Positions 25,003-42,174 of a stretch of DNA of 60,759 bases are shown piece by piece (within the stretch, counting starts at the first letter, position 1; each line of letters opens with the position of its first letter). The notes beneath the pieces are model-generated. The model worked only from the letters and a program-made list of their open reading frames with translations, had not been told where the DNA came from and did not search any database. The stretch comes from Chromobacterium piscinae (GTDB lineage Bacteria > Pseudomonadota > Gammaproteobacteria > Burkholderiales > Chromobacteriaceae), in the NCBI RefSeq assembly GCF_021129175.1, contig NZ_JAJOHV010000023.1:1-60759 (forward strand), given 5' to 3'. The position numbers were made by a program, and so were the translations under genes.

Positions 25003-27630
25003 ATGAGAGTCAAGACTCTTGCCCAGGCGATCGCCGCGATCGGCCTGCTGGGCAGCGGCTTTGCGCACGCCGCGGAAGACAGCCAACTGGAACGGGTGAC
25101 GATCACCGGTTCCAATATCAAGCGGATCGCCTCCCAAGGCGCGCTGCCGGTTGAAGTGCTGAAGAAAGAAGACATCGCCAAGACCGGTGCATCCACGGTT
25201 GTCCAGCTGCTGGAAACCTTGACTGCGGTGAATGGCGTCACTTCAGGCACTGACAGCAATAGTTTCGTGCCTGGCGCGGCCCACGCTGGCCTGCGTGGCA
25301 TGAACGACAAGTACACGCTGGTGCTGTTGAATGGCCGCCGGTTGGCGACTTACGCGCAGTTGGAAAGCGGTACTGACGCTTTCACGGATCTGAATACGCT
25401 GCCGCTGTCCGTCATCGAGTCGGTGGAAATCCTGCGCGATGGCGCGTCGGCGATTTATGGCTCCGATGCCGTGGCCGGCGTGATCAATTTCAAGACCAAG
25501 CGCAATTACCAAGGCGTTGATACCTATGCCCGCTATGGCCAGACGCAAGCAGGGGATGGCAAAGAACAGGCGGCAGGCGTTTCGGCGGGCGTAGGCGATC
25601 TGGACAAGGATGGCTACAACCTTATGGTGTCTTTCGACGCCTATCATCGCGAGCCCGTGTTCTACAGCAAGCATGAAGCGATCAAGACCCGCGATTTCCG
25701 TCGCTTCGGCGGCGCCGATAATCGCTATCTGAGCACGTGGGGCGGTTGGTCGACCGATCCGTCGTCCAAACCGTACTATGCGATGCCGTATTGCCAAAAA
25801 TCCTTGGTGACCAAGGGCAATGGCTCCACGATCTGCCCGATCGACTACGATCAGGAAGACGCTCAGGTTTCTCCTCGCACCAGCCGTTACGGTCTGTTGA
25901 CCACGCTGACCAGAAAGCTGGACGCCGATAGCCAGTTCTACATGGAGCTGGGCTTCAACCAGTCCAACACCGCTCTGCGCGGCGGCAACAATTTCCTCAA
26001 TGGCGTCAAGCTGAATCCGGGCGATGCGGCCTATCCGACGGATCCTAAGTTGATCTCCGCGTTGCAGGCTCAGCAGCCGTTCACGCCCGGCAAGGACAGC
26101 ATCACCGTCTACCGCGGCCTGAATGAGGGCTGGGGCCGGGACGTCGATTCGACCAGCAATACCTATCACGCCGTATTTGGTTATTCCACCTACTACAAGG
26201 ACTGGGATTACGACGCTTCCGTCAACTTCAGCGGCAACAATATCACCAATAAAAACCAGTCCTATCTGACCTCGCTGACGGATTCTCTGCAGACGGGCAA
26301 CCCCAGCGGCCCGACCTACAATCCGTTCATTCATGGCAATCCGGCCTCCAGCCTGACGCCTTACCAGGTGCTGACGACCGATACCGCCTCGACCAGCCTG
26401 CAAGCCTTGGAGCTGAAAGCATCCAAGAGCGAGCTGTTCCAGCTGCCGGGCGGCGCGGCCGGCTTCGCCGCAGGCATCCAATGGTGGCGCGAGACGCTGG
26501 AGAGCATACCCAGCGATTACTCGCAGCAAGGGCTAGTTCTGAATGCGGGACCGCAGTCCTACCTGAACGCCAGCCACAGCATTTTCGCGGCTTATAGCGA
26601 GCTGAACCTGCCGGTGGTCAAGAACCTGGAAGTGCAATTGGCGCTGCGCGCCGACCATTACAACGACTTCGGCAACACTATCAATCCGAAGATCGCCTTC
26701 ACGTATCGCCCCCTGAAGGAAGTGATGTTCCGCGGTTCCGCCACCTCGGGCTTCAAGGCGCCATCGTTCTCGCAACTGCGTCTGAACCGTACCGCTTATG
26801 ACTCGGTGACTGATCAGGCGCTGTGCGATCAACAGCATGTTTCCAATTGCACGCCCACCAGCACTCAAATCCGCAGTGGCGGCAACCCCAACCTGCAGCC
26901 GGAAACCAATGACAGCTTCAGCCTGGGCATGGTGCTGCAACCCATCAAGGATCTGTACGCCTCTGTCGACTTCTACCGGATCAACCAGAAGAATGTCATC
27001 AATGCGCTCGATACGGACGATGTGGTCAACAACCCGAGCAAGTACCCCGGCGCTATCGTGCGCAAACCGGCTCCTGCCGGCCAGTTGGGCGAAATCGACT
27101 ACATCAATACCCCGTACCAGAATGCGGGCGGCCTGACCACTTCCGGCCTGGACTTCGATTTGAGCTACAGCTGGTCTCTGGGTAGTTTCGGCAAGGTGAA
27201 GCTGGAAAACCAGCATAGCCGCCTGCTGAGCTACAAGGATCACAAGCTCGCATCCGATCCGTGGCTGGAAGAAGTGGATTATGCGATCCAACCGCGTTGG
27301 AAGAATGTGTTCACCGCCGAATACAGCATCAATAAGTTTTCGGCTGGCGTGACCGCTCGCAGCTATGCTGGTTATAAGGATCTGACGCAAGCCAGCAGCA
27401 GCCCTCGCTTGTTGAAGGGCAAACCGGCGCGGATACCGTCGTATACCGCTTTCGACGTTGACTTCAGCGTTTCACCGCTGAAAAAACTGACGGTGGGCGG
27501 CGGCATCAAGAACATCGGCAACCGCATTCCGCCGTACTTCATCAACGGCCAGACGCCGGGCACCTTCTCCGGCAGTTCGACCGATTTGTGGGGCCGAACC
27601 TACTATGTGAACGTCAACTACAAGTTCTGA
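25003..27630 (+). CDS. TonB-dependent outer membrane receptor
   Basis: An 875-aa protein with a signal peptide (MRVKTLAQAIAAIGLLGSGFAHA), a plug domain (LERVTITGSNIKRIASQGALP to about residue 170, including LRGMNDKYTLVLLNGRRLA and VESVEILRDGASAIYGSDAV) and a 22-strand barrel ending TYYVNVNYKF with the terminal aromatic residue. The GSNIKR and IYGSDAVAGVINFKTK blocks are typical of the large carbohydrate- or peptide-type TonB receptors of proteobacteria, and no siderophore-specific marker is seen, so the ligand is unknown. It stands alone, with a terminator just downstream. Confidence 0.9.
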   Translation: MRVKTLAQAIAAIGLLGSGFAHAAEDSQLERVTITGSNIKRIASQGALPVEVLKKEDIAKTGASTVVQLLETLTAVNGVTSGTDSNSFVPGAAHAGLRGMNDKYTLVLLNGRRLATYAQLESGTDAFTDLNTLPLSVIESVEILRDGASAIYGSDAVAGVINFKTKRNYQGVDTYARYGQTQAGDGKEQAAGVSAGVGDLDKDGYNLMVSFDAYHREPVFYSKHEAIKTRDFRRFGGADNRYLSTWGGWSTDPSSKPYYAMPYCQKSLVTKGNGSTICPIDYDQEDAQVSPRTSRYGLLTTLTRKLDADSQFYMELGFNQSNTALRGGNNFLNGVKLNPGDAAYPTDPKLISALQAQQPFTPGKDSITVYRGLNEGWGRDVDSTSNTYHAVFGYSTYYKDWDYDASVNFSGNNITNKNQSYLTSLTDSLQTGNPSGPTYNPFIHGNPASSLTPYQVLTTDTASTSLQALELKASKSELFQLPGGAAGFAAGIQWWRETLESIPSDYSQQGLVLNAGPQSYLNASHSIFAAYSELNLPVVKNLEVQLALRADHYNDFGNTINPKIAFTYRPLKEVMFRGSATSGFKAPSFSQLRLNRTAYDSVTDQALCDQQHVSNCTPTSTQIRSGGNPNLQPETNDSFSLGMVLQPIKDLYASVDFYRINQKNVINALDTDDVVNNPSKYPGAIVRKPAPAGQLGEIDYINTPYQNAGGLTTSGLDFDLSYSWSLGSFGKVKLENQHSRLLSYKDHKLASDPWLEEVDYAIQPRWKNVFTAEYSINKFSAGVTARSYAGYKDLTQASSSPRLLKGKPARIPSYTAFDVDFSVSPLKKLTVGGGIKNIGNRIPPYFINGQTPGTFSGSSTDLWGRTYYVNVNYKF

Positions 27631-33510: not shown

Positions 33511-34896
33511 CTAGACGGCTGCCGGCGCCGGCTCGGCAGCTTGCCGGCGCTTCCGCTTGCGCATCCAGTAATCCAGCACCAGCCGCTCGGGAAGGTTCAA
33601 TTTGAACGATGGGCAGCCAGTTTCGCCGTTGTACCACAGCTTGGCGCAGCCGCCGCCGCATACCGGAAACAGCGGGCAGCGGGGACAGGGCGATAGGCCA
33701 GTCTGGATGTCGGCGTACCATTCGCGGGTAACGGCCTTATCGTTGCGCGCCTGGTCTATGGTGCGGATGTGGCCGATCTTGTATTTGGGCGCATCGTATT
33801 TGGGCGTATACGGAAACTCGTAGCAGGGGTAGATATTGCCGTAGGCGTCATAGACCTCGGCGTCGGGCATCACCACCATGCAGGGCGCGATGGAGCGGGC
33901 CGGCAGGATGCGGTCGAATTCAAAACCCCGCCGGATCGCATGCGCCGTCCAGTCTATTTCCCGCGCGGCGAAGTCCGCCGCCGCCAGGCTGTCGCGGTCG
34001 GCCTGGTTGCCGCCCCAATCCACCACCGGGCGAAAATCCAGCCCCACATTGCGCGCCGCCAGCCCCCGATCGGCCAGCAGGTCTATCAGATCGGCAACCT
34101 TGTCCTGGTTGTGGCGGTTGATATTGATGCGGATTGTGACGCCGCTGCGATTGGCGCTGAATTCGGGCATGCCGGTCACGTCGACCAGATTTTGCAGGAT
34201 GATGTCGAAACTGCCGCCGCCGGCCTTGACCGGCCGCATCAGGTCGTGGGTGTGGCCGATGCCGTCCAGCGTGATCTGGAAGCTGTTGACGCGTTGTCGC
34301 TGCAGGCGCAGATACACGTCGGGTTTGAAGCTGAGCCCGTTGGTGACCATGGAGGCGAAGAAATGGACGCCGGCCGGCCCGCATTGTTCAATCAACTGGC
34401 CGCTGATGTCCTCTATCTGCTTCAGCGCCAGAATGGGTTCGCCGCCATACCAGTTGATCGCCAGCCTGGTGTAGGACTTGCGCCGCAGCGTGTCCATGAT
34501 GCGGGCGACGATGCGGGCGGAGGTGTCGTTATCCAGGTTCTTTTTGACGTGCTGCTGGCCGCAGTATCCGCAGCCCAGCTGGCAATTGGCTGTAGGCTGC
34601 AATGTCAGGCTGAGGGTATGGGTTTCGCGTATGCCGCGCTGGTTCTTTTCCAGCAGGTCCAGGAATTCGTCGCTGGTGGGCGGGACCAGCACCTCGTCGG
34701 CCCGCAATTGCAGCAGCGTCGCCTGATCGATGCGGTCGAACTCGCCGGCGAGCAGGCTGCGATAGATCCTTTCCTTGACCAGCAGCGACTTGCCGGTCCG
34801 GCTGGCGAACAGCAGGCGGGAAGGATCGGGATGGTGGGCCGGACTGACGATGTCCGAGGCGATCAGGTATCGGGACAGAACGTATTCGCCATGCAT
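33511..34896 (-). CDS. Radical SAM/SPASM peptide maturase of the RiPP locus
   Basis: This 461-aa enzyme has CQLGCGYC at residues 105-112 (C105, C109, C112, canonical CX3CX2C for the SAM-bound cluster) and NWYGGEPIL as the GGEP motif. A complete SPASM domain follows: C339, GNIYPC with C358, then CPRCPLFPVCGGGC with C404, C407, C413 and C417, and C428. That set provides ligands for two auxiliary 4Fe-4S clusters, as in peptide-modifying maturases. Residues 1-95 could form a leader-recognition region. It lies 188 bases downstream of precursor A, which is its most likely substrate. The crosslink or modification made cannot be predicted from sequence. GGGAGAGCC precedes the start. Confidence 0.9.
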   Translation of the reverse strand: MHGEYVLSRYLIASDIVSPAHHPDPSRLLFASRTGKSLLVKERIYRSLLAGEFDRIDQATLLQLRADEVLVPPTSDEFLDLLEKNQRGIRETHTLSLTLQPTANCQLGCGYCGQQHVKKNLDNDTSARIVARIMDTLRRKSYTRLAINWYGGEPILALKQIEDISGQLIEQCGPAGVHFFASMVTNGLSFKPDVYLRLQRQRVNSFQITLDGIGHTHDLMRPVKAGGGSFDIILQNLVDVTGMPEFSANRSGVTIRININRHNQDKVADLIDLLADRGLAARNVGLDFRPVVDWGGNQADRDSLAAADFAAREIDWTAHAIRRGFEFDRILPARSIAPCMVVMPDAEVYDAYGNIYPCYEFPYTPKYDAPKYKIGHIRTIDQARNDKAVTREWYADIQTGLSPCPRCPLFPVCGGGCAKLWYNGETGCPSFKLNLPERLVLDYWMRKRKRRQAAEPAPAAV

Positions 34897-34943
34897 GCTG
34901 GCTCTCCCAGGTCATCGGAACGGCAAGGCCATGCGGGCGACGC

Positions 34944-34983
34944 AGGCGGCCCGGCCACTGCCATGGCCTGGGGCGGGCCGCCT
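34944..34983 (-). promoter_or_regulatory. Hairpin between precursor A and the radical SAM gene
   Basis: AGGCGGCCCG (34944-34953) and CGGGCCGCCT (34974-34983) are perfectly complementary over 10 bp with a 20-base loop. No T-run follows on the minus strand, so a processing or stabilising hairpin, or partial attenuation, is more likely than full termination. Confidence 0.55.
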
Positions 34984-35084
34984 TTGTCGTTTCGGAGCGG
35001 CGGGCTGAAGGGCGCATCGCGTATTTCCCCGCTTCGCGCGGCGCGCCGAATCCGGCCCTCCACAGTCAGCCGGCTGGGACTGCC

Positions 35085-35258
35085 TTAGCCGGAGAAGCCC
35101 TTGTCACACCTGACATAACCCGAGTCGCATTGCGTCGGATCCTCTTCCATTTCGCCGCCGGAAACGAATTCCAGGTCCTGGTCGGCGATTTCGTGCATGG
35201 TCGACGACGATTCTTCGCCCAGCTCGTCCAGCATGGTTTGCAAGCTCTGATTCTTCAT
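35085..35258 (-). CDS. RiPP precursor peptide A with Gly-Gly leader and two-Cys core
   Basis: A 57-codon gene with a good ribosome site (AGGAG, seven bases upstream). The leader begins MKNQSLQTMLDELGEE and ends DLEFVSGG, with G34-G35 as the double-glycine site and Leu at -7 and Val at -4 as in bacteriocin-type leaders. Cleavage would release residues 36-57: EMEEDPTQ followed by CDSGYVRCDKGFSG. The core has C44 and C51, one Tyr and one Phe, and is acidic at its front. The gene lies directly upstream of the radical SAM/SPASM gene and downstream of two oxygenase-like genes. It is too short for default gene finders. Precursor status is inferred from leader, context and size. Confidence 0.85.
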   Translation of the reverse strand: MKNQSLQTMLDELGEESSSTMHEIADQDLEFVSGGEMEEDPTQCDSGYVRCDKGFSG

Positions 35259-35349
35259 ATGCGTCTCCTAAGTGGCTCAGGCTGCTAGTTTTGCGACATC
35301 AAGCCCGGATCGGTCGCATGGCAAAGGATGTGCCGGAATCGGTCCGCGA

Positions 35350-36651
35350 TCAGTCCGGCGTGACGGCGATGCCGCGATAACGGTGCAGCAGGCCGAGCAG
35401 GTAGTGGACTTTCTTTTCGGCCAGCGGGTCGTCGACCATCGCGACGATGTCTGCGACGGCGAGTTTGCCGCCGCCGTTCAACCTGTCGACGATGCCCTCC
35501 AGCCCCGGGAAGCTGCCGAGCGAGATCTTGGTGCCGCGCACATAGAGCTCCAGCCGGCCGGCCTTCGGCGCCGGGCGGCACAGCATCCGGTACGGCGGTT
35601 CGATGGCGATGCGGCTGTCGGCATGCATCGCGGGTTTGTCCTCGCGCGGCACCGGGCTGTTGCGGTAGCCGCCATTGCTGAACAGCGAGTAGCGCAGGTC
35701 GCGATAGACATCGCGCATCAGCGCGCGCAGATCGCCGTCGCTCGGCAGCGCCAGCAGCGACAGCGCGGATTCGACGGTGCCGATATCGTCTATCGGCCGC
35801 CGGTCGGCCTTCAGCATGATCCCGGATGGCCGCAGATGGGCTTCCCGGACGCGGTGCAGCAGTTCACAGGCGAAGTCGTGATCGGAGCGGTTGTAGAACC
35901 AGCAGGCGATGCTGATGGACAGCTGGTCCTGAGTGCCCAGGTGGAACATGTTTTCCGGCATGAAGTAGAGCTGGCCCTCGCCGAAGGTGTGGCGGACTGC
36001 GCTGGGCAGGTGCGGCGCGATGTCCCGATTGTTGTGGCGCTTCTGGCCGGGCGCGGTGACATAGTCGTCGTCGCGCCAGGTGTACATGGTTTTAGGGCCT
36101 GGTCCGAGGTGGAAGTGGATCACGCTCTTGCCGGGCGAGTCTTTGTGTATGCCCAGCGGCGTCATGTCGTAATTGCCGATGAACACGGTGAACAGGATGC
36201 CTTCGGTCGGCATGCCTATCGTCTTCAGCGCCGGTTCCAGAATGTGCGCGATCGCCTGGGACAGGCCGGGGCTGAACTTCTCGCCGCGGTTCAGAATGAT
36301 GCCGAACTTGCGTTCGCCGAAGGCGCGGCCCACCCAGTCTTCCACATTCTCGTGCGGCAGCGGATGCAGGGCGAAGTGCGCGTCGAGTTCATCGACCTTC
36401 AGACCGTCCAGCCACAGGCGGTAACCGTATTTCGCCTTGTGCACCTGGCCGAGCTCGGCCAGGATGTCCAGCACCTGGCGGCGCATGGCGCGGGCCTGGC
36501 AGGCGTCCAGCGCGTCATCGAAGACGCAGGGCTGGCTCATCTGCTCGGTTCGGGCTAGGAAGCCGCTCCACCAGCCGGCGTCGAATTGCTGCCGCAGCCG
36601 GGCGGGTGAAAGGCTGTTGTCCATCGTTTCGTTCTCGCTGGGATGGTTCAT
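35350..36651 (-). CDS. JmjC/cupin-like putative Fe(II)/2-oxoglutarate oxygenase 1
   Basis: A 433-aa protein whose residues 150-250 form a JmjC-like double-stranded beta-helix. LGIHKDSPGKSVIHFHLGPG supplies H169 and D171, and YFMPENMFHLGTQ supplies H237, the expected HxD...H iron triad; GPKTMYTW follows the first strand as in ribosomal oxygenases. The C-terminal part (PYRMLCRPAPKAGRLELYVRG, LNGGGKLAVADIVAMVDD) resembles a winged-helix tail. Known relatives hydroxylate His, Arg or Asp in proteins, so peptide hydroxylation is the inferred role. The start at 36651 follows AGGGA; a longer frame overlaps the next gene. It is 34 bases downstream of a paralogue. Confidence 0.8.
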   Translation of the reverse strand: MNHPSENETMDNSLSPARLRQQFDAGWWSGFLARTEQMSQPCVFDDALDACQARAMRRQVLDILAELGQVHKAKYGYRLWLDGLKVDELDAHFALHPLPHENVEDWVGRAFGERKFGIILNRGEKFSPGLSQAIAHILEPALKTIGMPTEGILFTVFIGNYDMTPLGIHKDSPGKSVIHFHLGPGPKTMYTWRDDDYVTAPGQKRHNNRDIAPHLPSAVRHTFGEGQLYFMPENMFHLGTQDQLSISIACWFYNRSDHDFACELLHRVREAHLRPSGIMLKADRRPIDDIGTVESALSLLALPSDGDLRALMRDVYRDLRYSLFSNGGYRNSPVPREDKPAMHADSRIAIEPPYRMLCRPAPKAGRLELYVRGTKISLGSFPGLEGIVDRLNGGGKLAVADIVAMVDDPLAEKKVHYLLGLLHRYRGIAVTPD

Positions 36652-36685
36652 GTTCGGGTCCCTGGCGCGGATGTGGAGACGGAAG

Positions 36686-37963
36686 TCAGCCCGTTGGCGC
36701 ATCCAGCTGGCGGATGCCGCGCCAATGGAGCAGCTCGCCCAGCAGATGCAAGCCAACCTTGGCCGGCCAGCGCGGGTCCAGCAGGCCCAGCAGTTCGGCC
36801 ACGGCGCAGGCCTGGCCCTGGTTCAGCCGGTCCAGCATCGCGATCAGGCCGGGGTGGCGGTTCATTTCCAGCTTGTTGCCGCGCACGTAGACGGCCATCC
36901 GTCCCGGCGTCGTGTCGCGCGTCAGCATCCGGTACGGCGTTTCCGCCTGTACCCGGTCGTCAGGCGCCAGGCTGGCCTTGTCTTCCCGTGGAAACGGCGG
37001 GCTGCGGTAGCCGGCGTTGCTGGCCAGACAGTGGCGCCAGTCCAGATAAGCCAGGCGCAGCAACTGGTCGTAGTCCCGCCCGCGGTATTCCTCCGGCAGC
37101 CGCCGCTTGGCGAGGATGGCGTCCAGCGCTCGGGCGTCGTCCGGCGGTGAAGGATCGTGGACAATGGCGTCGTCCGCTTCGCCATCCAGCTGTTTGAGCA
37201 GAAAGGCGTGCAGGTTCTTTGCCATCGCCTGGTTGGTGTGGGTGTATTGCCAGACGGTGATGCCGATGGACAGCTCGCTCTGCTCGCCGATGTGGAAGGT
37301 GCCTTCCGGCATGAAGAACAGGTCGCCGGCTTCGAAGTGGAAGGTTCTGGCATAGGGTTTGAGCGCGGCGAAGTCGCGTTTGGCTAACCCCTCTTCCTCC
37401 GTCAGCTGGCGGTAGCGCTCCGGCTCCCATAGATACATGGTCTTGGCGCCGGGGCCGACGTGGAAGTGGATGACGTTCTCTCCGCGCAGGTCCTGGTGTA
37501 CGCCGAGCGGGGTTTTGTCGTAATCGCCGATGAAGATGCTGAACTGGACGCCGTCCCGCGGCAGGCCGATTTTCTGGAATAACGGCGCCAGCAGCAGCGC
37601 GATCTCGCGCGAGAGTTGATGGTGGAATTTCTCCCCGGCATTGAGAATGATGCCGTACGGCATGCCGGGAAACGCCCGCCCGCCCCATGCTTCCAGGCTT
37701 TCTCCCGGCAGAGGCGGGCAGTCATAGAAACGCTCCAGCTCATCGCGGTTCAACAGCCGTCCGGCGGCGTAAACGCGAAGGCCGTAGGGACGTTCGCGCA
37801 GGGCGGCCCGCGTGGCCAGAAGTTCCAGCACCGCTTGCCGGAAGGCGGCGACCCGGCCGTCGTCGAGCGCGCCTTTGAATACGACCGGATTACTCAGTTG
37901 CCGGGACTCGTGCAGGAAGTCCTCCCACCATGCGTCGCTGAAGCTTGCGGTGTGCTTGTCCAT
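36686..37963 (-). CDS. JmjC/cupin-like putative Fe(II)/2-oxoglutarate oxygenase 2
   Basis: A 425-aa paralogue of the downstream gene. It has LGVHQDLRGENVIHFHVGPG (H156, D158) and FFMPEGTFHIGEQ (H224), so the iron-binding triad is complete. Shared blocks include YGIILNAGEKF, PLGVHQD, GPGAKTMYLW and the C-terminal PYRMLTRDTTPGRMAVYVRG. The two proteins align along their full length, pointing to tandem duplication within the locus with possible specialisation on different residues or precursors. GGAGAG precedes the ATG. It begins 107 bases after precursor B, whose His-rich core is a candidate substrate; that pairing is inference. Confidence 0.8.
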   Translation of the reverse strand: MDKHTASFSDAWWEDFLHESRQLSNPVVFKGALDDGRVAAFRQAVLELLATRAALRERPYGLRVYAAGRLLNRDELERFYDCPPLPGESLEAWGGRAFPGMPYGIILNAGEKFHHQLSREIALLLAPLFQKIGLPRDGVQFSIFIGDYDKTPLGVHQDLRGENVIHFHVGPGAKTMYLWEPERYRQLTEEEGLAKRDFAALKPYARTFHFEAGDLFFMPEGTFHIGEQSELSIGITVWQYTHTNQAMAKNLHAFLLKQLDGEADDAIVHDPSPPDDARALDAILAKRRLPEEYRGRDYDQLLRLAYLDWRHCLASNAGYRSPPFPREDKASLAPDDRVQAETPYRMLTRDTTPGRMAVYVRGNKLEMNRHPGLIAMLDRLNQGQACAVAELLGLLDPRWPAKVGLHLLGELLHWRGIRQLDAPTG

Positions 37964-38012
37964 TGAGCGGGCTCTCCGAAATGGTCGTTGGCGTGCGGCG
38001 CGGAAGTGGCAC

Positions 38013-38037
38013 GCCCGGTCTCCAGGGGGAGCCGGGC
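38013..38037 (-). promoter_or_regulatory. Hairpin between precursor B and oxygenase 2
   Basis: GCCCGG-T-CTCC (38013-38023) and GGAGCCGGGC (38028-38037) pair over 10 bp with one bulged base and a four-base loop. It lies just after the precursor stop and has no T-run, the same arrangement as at precursor A. Confidence 0.55.
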
Positions 38038-38070
38038 GGCTGACGCTGGCTCAGGGGTAGCCGGGCCGGT

Positions 38071-38241
38071 CTAGCTGGCGCTCGGGTGGACGTGGACGTG
38101 GTCCTCGTCGGTGTGGACGGGTTCCAGGCCGCCGCTGACCGCGCCTTCCTCCAGCGGGGACAGGACGGTGATGCCGAGGATGTCGGCGATTTCCTGGTCC
38201 TGATCCAGTTCGGTCTGCTCCACTTGCTTGTCGGTTTGCAT
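38071..38241 (-). CDS. RiPP precursor peptide B with Gly-Gly leader and His-rich core
   Basis: A 56-codon gene with AAGGAG eight bases before the ATG. The leader ends LSPLEEGAVSGG, which fits the double-glycine consensus well: L at -12, S at -11, E at -8, V at -4, GG at -2/-1 (G37, G38). The predicted core is LEPVHTDEDHVHVHPSAS, 18 residues with four His, three of them alternating as HVHVH, and three acidic residues. It has no Cys. It is the first gene of the minus-strand operon and shares EIAD and VSGG elements with precursor A. Precursor status is inferred from leader, operon position and the nearby C39 exporter. Confidence 0.85.
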   Translation of the reverse strand: MQTDKQVEQTELDQDQEIADILGITVLSPLEEGAVSGGLEPVHTDEDHVHVHPSAS

Positions 38242-38699
38242 GGTGCTTCTCCTTTGCGTGTGTGGGGGTCGACAGGGGTCGGCCCGAACGCGTCATCATA
38301 TGGATCCCGCGGCCTGGCGATGGCCGATGGGAGAAGAGGTATGGATCATTCCATTGATGACAGTGAACTATTGGACGGCCCCGATGGGGGAGCAACCCGG
38401 GCGATTACGGATGCGTGGCAACGGCGGAACCGGGGCGGCTTGTCTGCATCGCGCAACAGATCAGTAATCCTTGCCCAGCATGGTTATTGCGGATGGAGAA
38501 GGCGGAACTTGTTCGAAATGATGGTTATCGGCCAGTCCTAATGGACAGTGTGGCGCGCATGTAGTCCGTTATGAGAATTTAAAGAAGAAGACCAAGTCGC
38601 CGCGGCGGCCGTCCAAACGTTATGGAGTTGGAGTGCCAGGCTGCGTTTCTTGCCGCTTAAAATGCCAATGGAATTGATGATAGAGTTTCGAATCTCCGC
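38242..38699. promoter_or_regulatory. Divergent promoter region of the RiPP locus
   Basis: This 458-base gap separates the minus-strand precursor-enzyme operon from the plus-strand export genes. TATGAT (minus strand, complement of 38295-38300) lies about 55 bases before the precursor B start and could be a -10 element, though no matching -35 is clear. The part nearest the exporter genes (about 38500-38700) is AT-richer. No regulator gene is encoded nearby, so control may be exerted from elsewhere. A weakly supported small open frame (38341-38541) is listed separately. Confidence 0.45.
38341..38541 (+). CDS. Doubtful 66-aa open frame inside the divergent region
   Basis: The ATG at 38341 follows GGGAGAAGAGGT, a possible ribosome site, and the frame encodes MDHSIDDSELLDGPDGG and then an Arg-rich tail ending at TAA 38541. 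The DGG at residues 15-17 resembles a double-glycine site only loosely: the -4 position is Pro and the -7/-8 pattern is absent. It points towards the export genes. Composition and lack of any family resemblance make a chance frame likely; it is recorded because it sits in a RiPP locus. Confidence 0.2.
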   Translation: MDHSIDDSELLDGPDGGATRAITDAWQRRNRGGLSASRNRSVILAQHGYCGWRRRNLFEMMVIGQS

Positions 38700-39989
38700 A
38701 TGCCGCGGCGCGGCATGCCTACCAAAGGCGTCCTATCCGTGCCACTTTTTCGTTCCGCCGCTCTCAGCCACGCCTCAGACCGGCGCTATGGTCGCATCGT
38801 GCTGCTGCGTCCCGCCAGCTTCGCTTGGCTGACCGGCGTGTTCGCGCTGATCGCCATCGCCATCGTCCTGTTCTTTTCCCTGGCCAGCTATACCCGCAAG
38901 GCGCAGGTGCCGGGCGTGCTGCTGCCCAGCCTGGGTCTGATCCGGCTGCAGCCGGCTCAGTCCGGCGTGGTGGCCGAGGTGAAGGTGCGCGAGGGCCAGC
39001 AAGTGCGGGCCGGCGACGTGCTGTTCGTGCTCGGCAACGAGCGCGAGAGCGCCACCCGCGGCGACGCCGGGCGCGAGATCACCGCGCTGCTGCAATCGCG
39101 GCGCGACAGCCTGGCCGGGGACCAGGCGATGCTGCGCATGCAGGCCAGGCAAAAACAGGAGACGTTGCGGCGCAAGGCGGACGACCTGGCGCGCGAATTG
39201 CAGCGGATGGACGAACAGATCGGCCTGCAGCGGCGGCGGGTGGCGCTGGCCGAGGACACGCTGCAGCGCAACCGCAAGCTGCTGGCGTCGCAGTTCATCT
39301 CCGCCGCCGCGCTGCAGGACAAGCAGGCGGAAGTGATAGACCAGCAGACCAAGCTGGCCGACCTCCAGCGCAGCCGCGCCGCCCTGCAGAGCGAGCATGA
39401 CGCGGCCTTGTCCGATCTGGGCGACCTGCAGCTGCAAGCCAAACGCGACGAGGCGGCGGCGCAGCGCGGCATGGCGGAGCTGGAGCAGGATCTGACCGAG
39501 AACGAAGCCAAGCGCAAATTGCTGGTGCGCGCGCCGCAGGCCGGCATGGTCAGCGGCATCGCCGCCCAGGCCGGGCAGACCGTGGCGTCCGGACAGACGC
39601 TGGCGAATCTGTCGCCGGCCGGCTCGCCGCTGGAGGCGGAACTGTACGCGCCGTCGCGCGCCGCCGGTTTCGTCAAGCCTGGCATGGCGGTGCTGATCCG
39701 CTACCAGGCTTATCCCTACCAGAAGTTCGGCCAGTTCAAGGGCACGGTGCGCGAAGTGTCGCGCAGCGCGCTGCGGCCGGAGGAGCTGTACCTGCCCGGG
39801 GGCCAGGGTGGCTCCGGCGAGCAGCTGTACCGGGTGCGGGTGAGGCTGGAGCGCCAGAGCGTCATCACCTATGGCCAGAACCAGTCGTTGAAGGCCGGCA
39901 TGGCGCTGGACGCCAGCGTGCTGCTGGAGCGGCGCAAGCTGTACGAATGGGTGCTGGAGCCGCTCTACAGCATCAGCGGAAAGGTGTGA
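38700..39989 (+). CDS. HlyD-family periplasmic adaptor of the peptide exporter
   Basis: A 429-aa membrane fusion protein. One N-terminal transmembrane helix (FAWLTGVFALIAIAIVLFFSLA) is followed by a lipoyl/barrel-sandwich half (GVVAEVKVREGQQVRAGDVLFVLG), a long coiled-coil hairpin rich in Gln, Arg and Leu (residues about 130-260), the second lipoyl half (RAPQAGMVSGIAAQAGQTVASGQTL) and beta-barrel domains. It would link the inner-membrane C39 transporter to an outer membrane TolC-like channel, which is not encoded here. No strong ribosome site marks the ATG at 38700, so the start is tentative (Met-6 at 38715 is an alternative). One base separates its stop from the transporter start. Confidence 0.92.
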   Translation: MPRRGMPTKGVLSVPLFRSAALSHASDRRYGRIVLLRPASFAWLTGVFALIAIAIVLFFSLASYTRKAQVPGVLLPSLGLIRLQPAQSGVVAEVKVREGQQVRAGDVLFVLGNERESATRGDAGREITALLQSRRDSLAGDQAMLRMQARQKQETLRRKADDLARELQRMDEQIGLQRRRVALAEDTLQRNRKLLASQFISAAALQDKQAEVIDQQTKLADLQRSRAALQSEHDAALSDLGDLQLQAKRDEAAAQRGMAELEQDLTENEAKRKLLVRAPQAGMVSGIAAQAGQTVASGQTLANLSPAGSPLEAELYAPSRAAGFVKPGMAVLIRYQAYPYQKFGQFKGTVREVSRSALRPEELYLPGGQGGSGEQLYRVRVRLERQSVITYGQNQSLKAGMALDASVLLERRKLYEWVLEPLYSISGKV

Positions 39990-39990
39990 G

Positions 39991-42174
39991 ATGAGCTATC
40001 AGCAACCGACCTTGCGATTCTGGGGCCGCCGCCGGCTGCCGCTGCTGCTGCAGACCGAGGCCGCCGAATGCGGCCTGGCCAGCCTGGCGATGGTGGCCGG
40101 CTATTGGGGGCATCGCATCGATCTGGCAAATATGCGCCGCCGTTTCTCGGTGTCGCTGAAGGGCAGCACGCTGAAGAGCCTGATCGCGATGGCCCAGGGG
40201 CTGGGCTTGGCGTCGCGGCCGCTGAAGCTGGACCTGCAGCATCTGCCGCAGTTGAAGCTGCCCTGCGTGCTGCATTGGGACATGAACCATTTCGTGGTGT
40301 TGAAACAGGTGTCGGCGCGCCACATCGTCATCCACGATCCGGGAGTGGGCGAGCGCAAGCTGAGCCTGGACGAGGCGTCCAAGCATTTCACCGGGGTGGC
40401 GCTGGAGTTGACGCCGGACACCTCGTTCCGCAAGACCGAGGAGAAGCTGCAGTTCAGCCTGCTGTCGCTGATGGGCCGGGTGGACGGCCTGGGCGGCGGC
40501 TTGCTCCAGTTGCTGTTGCTGGGCCTGGCGCTGCAGGTATGCGCGCTGGCCGCGCCGTTCTATTTGCAGTGGGTGGTGGACGAGGCGCTGGTGGCGGCCG
40601 ACCGCGACCTGATCACCGTGCTGGGCATCGGCTTCCTGCTGCTGGTGCTGTTGCAGACCGCGATCGGCGCGGTGCGCTCCTGGGCGACCACGGCGCTGGC
40701 CACCAGCCTCAATTTCCAGTGGCTGGGCAACGCCTTCGCCCACCTGATGCGTTTGCCGCTGCCGTGGTTCGAGAAGCGCCATCTGGGCGACATCACCTCG
40801 CGTTTCGGCTCGATCCAGACCATACAGAAAAGCCTGACCACCCAGTTCGTGGAAGGGGTGATCGATGGTTTGCTGGTGATCGCCACGCTGATCGTGATGC
40901 TGCTGTACAGCGCGTCGCTGGCCATGGTGAGCCTGATCGCGGTGGCGCTGTACGCGCTGCTGCGCTGGAGCATCTTCCGCGCGCTGCGCGAGGCCACCGC
41001 CGAGCAGATCATCCACGCGTCGCGGCAGAACACCCATTTCATCGAGTCGGCGCGCGGCGCGCAGAGCGTGCGGCTGTTCGGCCGCCAGGAGGAGCGGCGC
41101 ATAGGCTGGATGAACGCGTTGGCCGAGCAGTTCAACGCCGATTTGCGCATCGCCCGGCTCAGCCTGTCGTTCCAGACCGCCAATGCGCTGCTGTTCAACG
41201 CCGAGCGGGTGATCGTGGTGTGGCTGGCGGCGCTGGCGGTGATGGATGGCCGCTTCTCGGCGGGCATGCTGTTCGCCTTCCTCAGCTACAAGGACCAGTT
41301 CAGCCAGCGCATCGCCGCGCTGATAGACAAGTTGTTCGAGCTGCGCATGCTGCGGCTGCACGGCGAACGCGTCGCCGACATCCTGCTGACCGAGCCGGAG
41401 CCGGAACTGAACGATGTCGAGATCGATCCGGCCCATGTCCAGGCGGCGATCGAACTGCGCAATGTTTCCTTCCGCTATTCCGACAGCGAGCCCTATGTGC
41501 TGCGCGAGCTGAGCCTGGCGATTCCGGCCGGCCAGTGCCTGGCCGTCACCGGCGCCTCCGGCTGCGGCAAGACCACGCTGCTGAAGCTGGTCCTCGGCCT
41601 GATGGAGCCGACCGAGGGCGAGGTGCTGGTGGGCGGCGTGCCGCTCAGGCAGCTGGGCCTGGGCAATTATCGCCAGATGCTGGGCACGGTGATGCAGGAC
41701 GATCTGCTGTTTTCCGGCTCCATCGCCGACAACATCTGCTTTTTCGATCCGCAACCTGATCAGGAGCGCATCCGCCGTTGCGCCGGTTTCGCCGCCATCC
41801 ACGACGAAATCATGGCGATGCCGATGAACTACAACACCCTGGTCGGCGACATCGGCTCCGGCCTGTCCGGCGGCCAGAAACAGCGCGTGCTGCTGGCACG
41901 GGCGCTGTACAAGCAGCCGCGGCTGTTGGTGCTGGACGAGGCCACCAGCCATCTGGACGTATGGAACGAGCAGCTGGTCAACGCCGCGGTGCGGGATATC
42001 GACATGACGCGCATTCTGGTCGCCCACCGGCCGGAAACCATCGCCATGGCCGAGCGGGTGGTGGTGTTGGAACAGGGGCGCATCGTGCAGGATTCTCCGG
42101 CGGCGGCCGCGGCAGAACAGCGGAGGGCGAGGGCCGGCGGCGGTCCCGGGCGGGCCGGCGATCATGTAGAATGA
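39991..42174 (+). CDS. Peptidase-containing ABC exporter (C39) for double-glycine peptides
   Basis: The 727-aa exporter has an N-terminal C39 peptidase domain with the full triad: C27 in [21 protein letters not shown]100 in [10 protein letters not shown]116 in HDPGVGE. It therefore should cut leaders after Gly-Gly, unlike the degenerate C39-like domains of RTX toxin exporters. Six membrane helices follow (residues about 160-430), then an ATPase domain with Walker [10 protein letters not shown], signature LSGGQKQR and Walker [10 protein letters not shown]. It forms the export unit with the HlyD-type gene just upstream. The two Gly-Gly precursors on the other strand are the obvious substrates. 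The last 20 residues are Gly/Arg-rich and unconserved-looking. Confidence 0.95.

Follow-up and report, generated by a model that had tools for sequence, protein, structure and literature searches.

The 60,759-nucleotide stretch of Chromobacterium piscinae DNA analysed here (the window; contig NZ_JAJOHV010000023.1 of assembly GCF_021129175.1) carries a seven-gene island (33511–42174) flanked by pilR (end 33459) and hemL (start 42260). An original prediction, made from the sequence alone, had read this island as an undescribed pathway for ribosomally synthesized and post-translationally modified peptides (RiPPs), in which a radical SAM/SPASM maturase (rSAM) and two tandem JmjC-like oxygenases (jmjA, jmjB) act together on two precursors with double-glycine (GG) leaders (preA, preB) that are exported by an HlyD/C39-ABC pair. 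All seven genes lie where they had been placed (Table 1), but their arrangement in related genomes led us to another architecture. The island is probably a modular export locus, in which two separate precursor–maturase modules, module A (preA and rSAM) and module B (preB, jmjB and jmjA), share one HlyD adaptor and one C39-ABC exporter, and in which a JmjC enzyme of module B would hydroxylate a repetitive core. The set of GG precursor, JmjC protein and C39 exporter foreseen in the original prediction is thus retained, being conserved well beyond this genome, whereas rSAM probably does not belong to the same pathway.

The separability of the modules is seen within the genus. A jmjB relative occurs in nine of the 61 genomes of the family, all nine among the 19 genomes of the genus itself, with G023 having only distant copies. 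Close rSAM relatives (at least 84% identity) are found in four of the 61, again all within the genus; matches at E up to 1e-3 extend to 30 genomes and are mostly weak, G024 having two (53 and 41%). The genome under study, G027 and G018 carry both modules. G017, G019 and G021 possess preB, jmjB, jmjA and the exporter, with no preA at the locus and no rSAM match genome-wide, and G028 possesses preA, rSAM and the exporter, with no JmjC match genome-wide and no preB at the locus. The JmjC set of G025 is intact while its preA is decayed and its rSAM reduced to a fragment; this island lies away from pilR and borders integrase-like remnants and repeated fragments (L041, 6000–7600). G026 has a preB-like gene and one JmjC gene, the exporter being about 10 kb off on the same contig, and G021 and G027 carry an extra precursor and a third JmjC, each time the copy nearest pilR. 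The preB core of G021, which lacks rSAM, is that of the window minus two end residues. Since the modules occur apart, and the G021 core is alike without rSAM, we regard them as two cargo modules of one exporter. Among 35 genomes whose JmjC domain scores at least 380 bits, only three have a close rSAM in the stretch examined around it. The conserved co-occurrence by which the single pathway was to be checked therefore fails for rSAM and JmjC and holds for precursor, JmjC and exporter.

Within module B, the leader is linked to the JmjC genes. The preB leader ends in ...DILGITVLSPLEEGAVSGG and is followed by the core LEPVHTDEDHVHVHPSAS; its relatives share the leader motif and differ in their cores. 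The conserved stretch reads LxxxxLSPLExxx[VIL]xGG, and among the 29 leaders that were typed (three further leaders or weak open reading frames, ORFs, were excluded) L-17, [ED]-8 and GG are present in all 29, and L-12 and P-10 in 27. A hidden Markov model (HMM) trained on 15 family leaders, preB being one of them, was run on the loci around JmjC matches, and in the window it matches preB 111 bases upstream of the jmjB match. In 33 of the 35 genomes the HMM matches a leader less than 1 kb upstream of the JmjC and in the same orientation (at 66–516 bases, in one case at 925). For the 15 training genomes this is a matter of construction; of the other 20, 18 match as well, several of them close kin of training rows. 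A match to the C39-ABC of the window is nearby in 34 of the 35, the exception being the 4.8-kb contig of G683. The same HMM found the motif at none of seven control loci without JmjC, and none of ten precursors tested belongs to a curated Pfam or NCBIfam family. As judged from sequence, module B thus combines the features by which a RiPP system is recognized, namely a leader–core precursor with a conserved leader and a variable core, adjoined by a candidate modifying enzyme, and there is a fair chance that the JmjC–precursor family is a RiPP class of its own.

The module B family recurs in Betaproteobacteria and Bacteroidota, with a thin and patchy distribution. A scan of genome contigs returned nine loci, including Paucibacter, Riemerella, Chryseobacterium, Aquimarina and a broken Massilia copy. 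Profile searches at E up to 1e-20 found JmjC relatives in 21 of 320 genomes of the Chryseobacterium family, in eight of 397 of the Aquimarina family (three being distant relatives that lack the set) and, among 399 genomes of the Paucibacter family, in Paucibacter alone, which has preB, jmjB and jmjA with no rSAM at the locus. The class sample gave three of 369, that is, the genome under study and two distant relatives with no precursor or C39-ABC nearby, and the phylum sample two of 296, both among loci already counted. A Bergeyella plasmid carries a precursor, a broken JmjC and pieces of C39-ABC; in this B. porcorum plasmid a C-terminal SPASM-like remnant lies between the broken JmjC and C39-ABC (L051, 9009–9410), a hint that the cluster once held an rSAM too. 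The remaining plasmid matches of jmjB (19 of 20 records, from Streptomyces, Nostoc, Pantoea and Klebsiella) are distant (21.1–33.9% identity), and the annotated features around one Streptomyces and one Pantoea match include none named as a C39 exporter. A viral origin was considered and set aside, no relative having been found in a scan of viral contigs.

The tandem oxygenases are recognizable by their catalytic residues and by their predicted structure. The HxD...H triad noted in both proteins (H156, D158 and H224 of jmjB) is invariant in all 15 JmjC rows of our alignment. Their JmjC-like label is fair, although weak by sequence: jmjB falls below the Pfam cut-offs for Cupin_8 (20.7 vs 27.4) and JmjC_2 (PF08007; 15.4 vs 22), no Pfam family matches jmjA at E values up to 1, and nine of 15 family members match PF08007 with E values of 0.1 or lower, the best being 0.00058. 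In Pfam and NCBIfam scans jmjA, jmjB, preA and preB have no family match above cut-off. The label is settled by the predicted fold of jmjB, which resembles that of the ribosomal oxygenases (ROX) YcfD, NO66 and MINA53 (12–16% identity in structural alignment) and in the model extends through the C-terminal domain. This domain, predicted to consist of strands followed by three helices, matches the C-terminal portion of ROX chains in the structural alignment; the RiPP recognition element (RRE) has a beta3-alpha3 fold. Whereas YcfD, NO66 and MINA53 are ribosomal oxygenases, the JmjC of the island is encoded beside a secreted-type precursor. A sequence search of the JmjC profile against the PDB matched only LuxR/SmcR-type regulators (E 0.18 or worse), which we took as chance. 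jmjA adjoins jmjB in the genome under study, G017, G018, G019, G021, G025, G027 and Paucibacter, and the jmjA rows form one clade (support 99/100).

The cores that follow the module B leader are repetitive and diverse, 39 precursors giving 34 distinct cores. Those of Chromobacterium preB are of the HVHVH or HEDHDHVH type, that of Paucibacter is VHIHQGSQHVDV, and VVRQVRQVVQVVQ and KTVRTVKTVVDVVTTV are further examples. Polyglutamine (polyGln) cores have longest runs of 7 residues in Riemerella, 13 in Chryseobacterium and in G611, 15 in G707 and 18 in Bergeyella, and, in the Aquimarina family, of 17 in G1161, at least 10 in G1392 and 12 in G1502, while (VT)n cores are shared by G614 and the additional unit of Chromobacterium G021. 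Same-residue matches at lags 1 to 4 (180, 216, 190 and 181) exceed the shuffled values (134.6, 128.9, 122.5 and 116.7), with none of 2000 shuffles reaching the observed count at any lag and the largest excess at lag 2. The mixed CAA/CAG codons of the Gln runs, in the rows listed, and the mixed VT codons of G021 argue against recent DNA slippage alone; the VT codons of G614 are nearly uniform (mostly GTT ACA), so slippage is possible there. JmjC distance correlates with core-composition distance over 22 enzyme–core pairs (r 0.43, 0/5000 permutations) and more so over the 14 from Bacteroidota (r 0.63, 0/5000), kinship being ignored in both, and in a tree of 31 proteins those JmjCs paired with polyGln cores that were included (Riemerella, Chryseobacterium, G1161 and G1502), from two families, form one clade (97/98). 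Close to the polyGln precursors of G1502 lies another GG ORF, the third there (L132, 4747–4920); its core, AGCSPMCDNPTTQCQCQGQQQQ, contains Cys and in this differs from the rest of the family.

From gene content, module separability, the leader–JmjC linkage, the repetitive cores and the ROX-like predicted fold, we infer the following course of events. A ROX-type (YcfD/NO66/MINA53-like) Fe(II)/2-oxoglutarate oxygenase would bind the module B leader, perhaps through its C-terminal domain, and would carry out an O2- and 2-oxoglutarate-dependent hydroxylation of core side chains; the beta carbon is the likeliest site, and several positions of the low-complexity repeat are probably modified. The C39 domain would then cut after GG, and the core would leave the cell via HlyD, the product possibly being secreted for competition or signaling. 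Module A would act independently, its radical SAM/SPASM enzyme modifying, and perhaps cross-linking, the two-Cys core of preA. We propose, tentatively, that module B represents a new RiPP class, in which a ROX-type JmjC may have shifted from ribosomal proteins to secreted tandem-repeat peptides (polyGln, (VT)n, HVHVH, VVRQ) and would hydroxylate them at many positions.

Several observations weigh against this course of events for module B. Two of the 35 genomes have no leader match, G659, in which the JmjC lies at the contig edge, and G1150, where the GG ORFs are all weak (E 0.67 and 2.2). The precursor is missing at seven of eight weaker or broken JmjC loci (G023, G316, G189, G1418, G1168, G1260 and Massilia, where the only HMM match, of 10 bits, is on the opposite strand), the Bergeyella plasmid being the one that has the leader; being a JmjC relative does not by itself imply a precursor. 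No residue type is common to all cores, and the sister JmjCs G026_C, G027_C and G021_C of Chromobacterium pair with Q/E-rich and (VT)n cores, a poor fit with one fixed target residue. The JmjC–core correlation falls to r 0.30 for pairs below 60% identity (a value without permutations, and uncorrected for shared ancestry), and an amphipathic strand common to all cores was rejected, since hydrophobic/polar alternation did not exceed expectation (318 vs 312.6, p 0.33). Lastly, MINA53 and NO66 are reported to be narrow in substrate, and Gln-containing peptides are discussed as inhibitors or competitors (PMC9994133).

Other explanations of the island were weighed against the modular one. A joint action of rSAM and the two JmjC enzymes on the two peptides, giving one doubly modified product, would account for the joint presence of all genes in three genomes and for the position of jmjA next to preA. 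Moreover, these three genomes, which all bear JmjC, share one and the same preA core, with Asp after each Cys, where the JmjC-less G028 has Gln and Gly; this single sequence contrast gives a hint that JmjC might also act on preA. The modules nevertheless stand alone in G028 on one side and in G017, G019, G021 and Paucibacter on the other, in G025 module A is decayed and module B intact, and preB cores are alike with and without rSAM, which together make a single pathway improbable. We find it unlikely, although slightly less so, that the peptides are plain and unmodified like class II microcins, with JmjC serving another purpose such as protecting the producer or modifying the ribosome or the exporter. 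The GG leaders, the HlyD adaptor and the C39-ABC exporter of the island are all those of class II microcins, and in G023 the exporter is accompanied by two GG peptides, the ORFs read there including no maturase. In addition, ROX enzymes are best known for acting on ribosomal proteins (PMC9994133). The island differs from class II microcins, however, in its adjoining predicted oxygenase, its conserved leader stretch N-terminal to GG and its low-complexity cores; the precursor precedes JmjC on the same strand in the 33 of 35 genomes, across two phyla, its leader motif goes with JmjC genes and is lacking at the control loci, and JmjC divergence tracks core composition.

A secreted metal ligand acting via beta-hydroxy-Asp or beta-hydroxy-His, suggested by the His- and Asp-rich preB cores of Betaproteobacteria (HEDHDHVHKAQ, VHTDEDHVHVH), is as improbable as the single pathway, as His is missing from the polyGln, (VT)n or Val/Arg/Gln cores that prevail among the Bacteroidota relatives and occur in the third units of G021 and G027, and no metal-uptake gene is evident among the seven genes of the island. 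As a general function it was discarded, core His being absent from most relatives outside the HVHVH group. Proteusins of the polytheonamide type, considered on account of alternating cores, were set aside as well, the loci without rSAM having neither such a leader nor an epimerase-like match to the rSAM of the window. The modular reading thus remains the one that we favor.

Among the papers listed by the literature searches, JmjC enzymes of RiPP pathways are represented by BipG/PbsQ and their relatives, together with a remark on PF08007–RRE fusions (PMC12707348, PMC12257519 and PMC12710340). BipG and PbsQ are described as JmjC or cupin-like ornithine hydroxylases of biphenomycin and biphenomycin-like pathways; they hydroxylate a side chain of a ribosomal precursor, as the island enzymes would, and belong to clusters that also contain a radical SAM enzyme (PMC12707348, PMC12257519). 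Theirs is a single step on one ornithine, in a pathway with MNIO, a B12-dependent radical SAM enzyme, arginase activity and a TldD-type protease (same papers), none of which was found among the seven island proteins in the Pfam and NCBIfam scans. In the island family, JmjC is often the only evident maturase and sometimes duplicated, and its companions are a GG leader, a C39 exporter and repetitive cores; this comparison is drawn from cluster descriptions. On the Pantoea ananatis plasmid, an arginase-family gene lies beside two cupin-domain genes, the first of which is the distant jmjB match (L053, 4626–7868), recalling the arginase and cupin pair of biphenomycin-like clusters. The PF08007–RRE fusions are reported from fish and algae, with their closest bacterial homologs, about 30% identical, in RiPP-like contexts, and the passage concerned names no precursor or class for them (PMC12710340); the island enzyme, for its part, has a predicted C-terminal domain of strands and three helices. 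No description of the precursor family was found among the papers listed, most subscription papers lying outside the search, and an earlier notice is possible, for example in a 2010 survey of peptide-modifying dioxygenases (Iyer et al.).

These loci link a large oxygenase superfamily, known mainly from work on ribosomes and chromatin, to genetically encoded small substrates in two phyla. As the precursors are short and easily expressed, the rules of residue and position followed by ROX-type enzymes become testable. If the proposal holds, bacteria would export oxidized polyglutamine peptides, secreted polyGln or (VT)n peptides would stand out as a product type, and one enzyme fold would tolerate His, Gln, Val/Thr and Lys/Arg repeats, being swapped between strains along with the core. 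A shared exporter with swappable cargo modules also suggests how such loci may diversify.

Table 1. Genes of the island (positions in the window)
Gene	Position	Strand	Evidence
rSAM (radical SAM/SPASM maturase, module A)	33511..34896	-	Radical_SAM, TIGR04085, relatives
preA (module A precursor peptide)	35085..35258	-	conserved beside rSAM
jmjA (ROX-like JmjC oxygenase, second of tandem pair)	35350..36627	-	HxD...H triad, jmjB neighbor
jmjB (ROX-like JmjC oxygenase, first gene downstream of preB)	36686..37963	-	triad, predicted fold
preB (module B precursor peptide)	38071..38241	-	leader HMM match, relatives
HlyD-type periplasmic adaptor of shared exporter	38700..39989	+	HlyD_3 E 4.7e-19
C39 peptidase/ABC exporter	39991..42174	+	Peptidase_C39 E 4.8e-35, ABC_membrane, ABC_tran

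The exporter pair was confirmed by Pfam, and its C39-ABC is predicted to cleave the GG leaders of both preA and preB. Conservation as genes elsewhere in the genus shows that neither precursor is a chance ORF. The HlyD adaptor is retained with either module and with other cargo, and C39-ABC is 96% identical in G028, which has no JmjC module. In G012 the exporter goes with a different radical SAM (28% identity) and two other GG peptides, located in the pilR slot, whose cores are FLDIRCQTVNECKPTLQAQSDN and FMDYECKTTNKCQIQQEPQ (L163, 5514–6956). A JmjC or radical SAM gene, that of G012 included, lies within 1.5 kb of pilR in nine of the 19 genomes of the genus.

In module A, the CX3CX2C motif and the seven SPASM cysteines of rSAM can be read directly in the translation, as had been noted. 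The protein matches Radical_SAM of Pfam (E 5.6e-11) and passes the SPASM cut-off of NCBIfam TIGR04085 (44.3 vs 27), while failing that of the Pfam SPASM model (14.1 vs 21.5). Its relatives in G027 (97.6%), G018 (88%) and G028 (84%) all adjoin a conserved preA, whose leader in the window ends in ...DLEFVSGG and whose core is EMEEDPTQCDSGYVRCDKGFSG; the copies of the window and of G028 have the two core Cys in common, the latter retaining CxSGYVxCxxG[FY], and a weak preA match (34%, E 9e-6) lies beside the 53% relative of rSAM in G024. Sactipeptides and ranthipeptides, with which module A may be compared, carry a Cys thioether made by an rSAM/SPASM enzyme. The best equivalog, TIGR04463, resembles module A in combining Radical SAM and SPASM beside a Cys-containing GG precursor, but its cut-off is not reached (214.7 vs 525 bits), and the Clo7bot, CefB and geopeptide maturase equivalogs are likewise far from theirs. 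The likeness of preA to the plantaricin C family of NCBIfam is weak (E 0.0078, 16.7 bits vs a cut-off of 29) and runs across the leader. Three small genes come after the 41% relative in G024, and their short cores resemble one another: HNCIFQFIFER, GFICLIQVIYTF and HNCLFQFIFEK (L050, 7472–9672).

A few observations concern the surroundings of these loci. Two JmjC copies of Massilia sp. H-1 are in pieces (L062, 6804–9223), with no exporter match or precursor in the stretch examined. Among nine neighboring proteins of Bacteroidota loci, picked by eye and scanned, seven are OMP_b-brl_3 or TonB-like barrels (seven loci), none being evident elsewhere. Small proteins lie between a polyGln precursor and JmjC at L060 (7549–7980), L102 (6283–6660) and L130 (4674–5048), two with secreted-like starts; that of Chryseobacterium weakly matches DUF6705 (E 0.0023, below cut-off). 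A scan for consensus promoters found none. Elsewhere in the window, at 25003–27630, the start of a gene resembles that of a TonB-dependent receptor, and the G+C content of the surrounding stretch is lowered (about 0.60).

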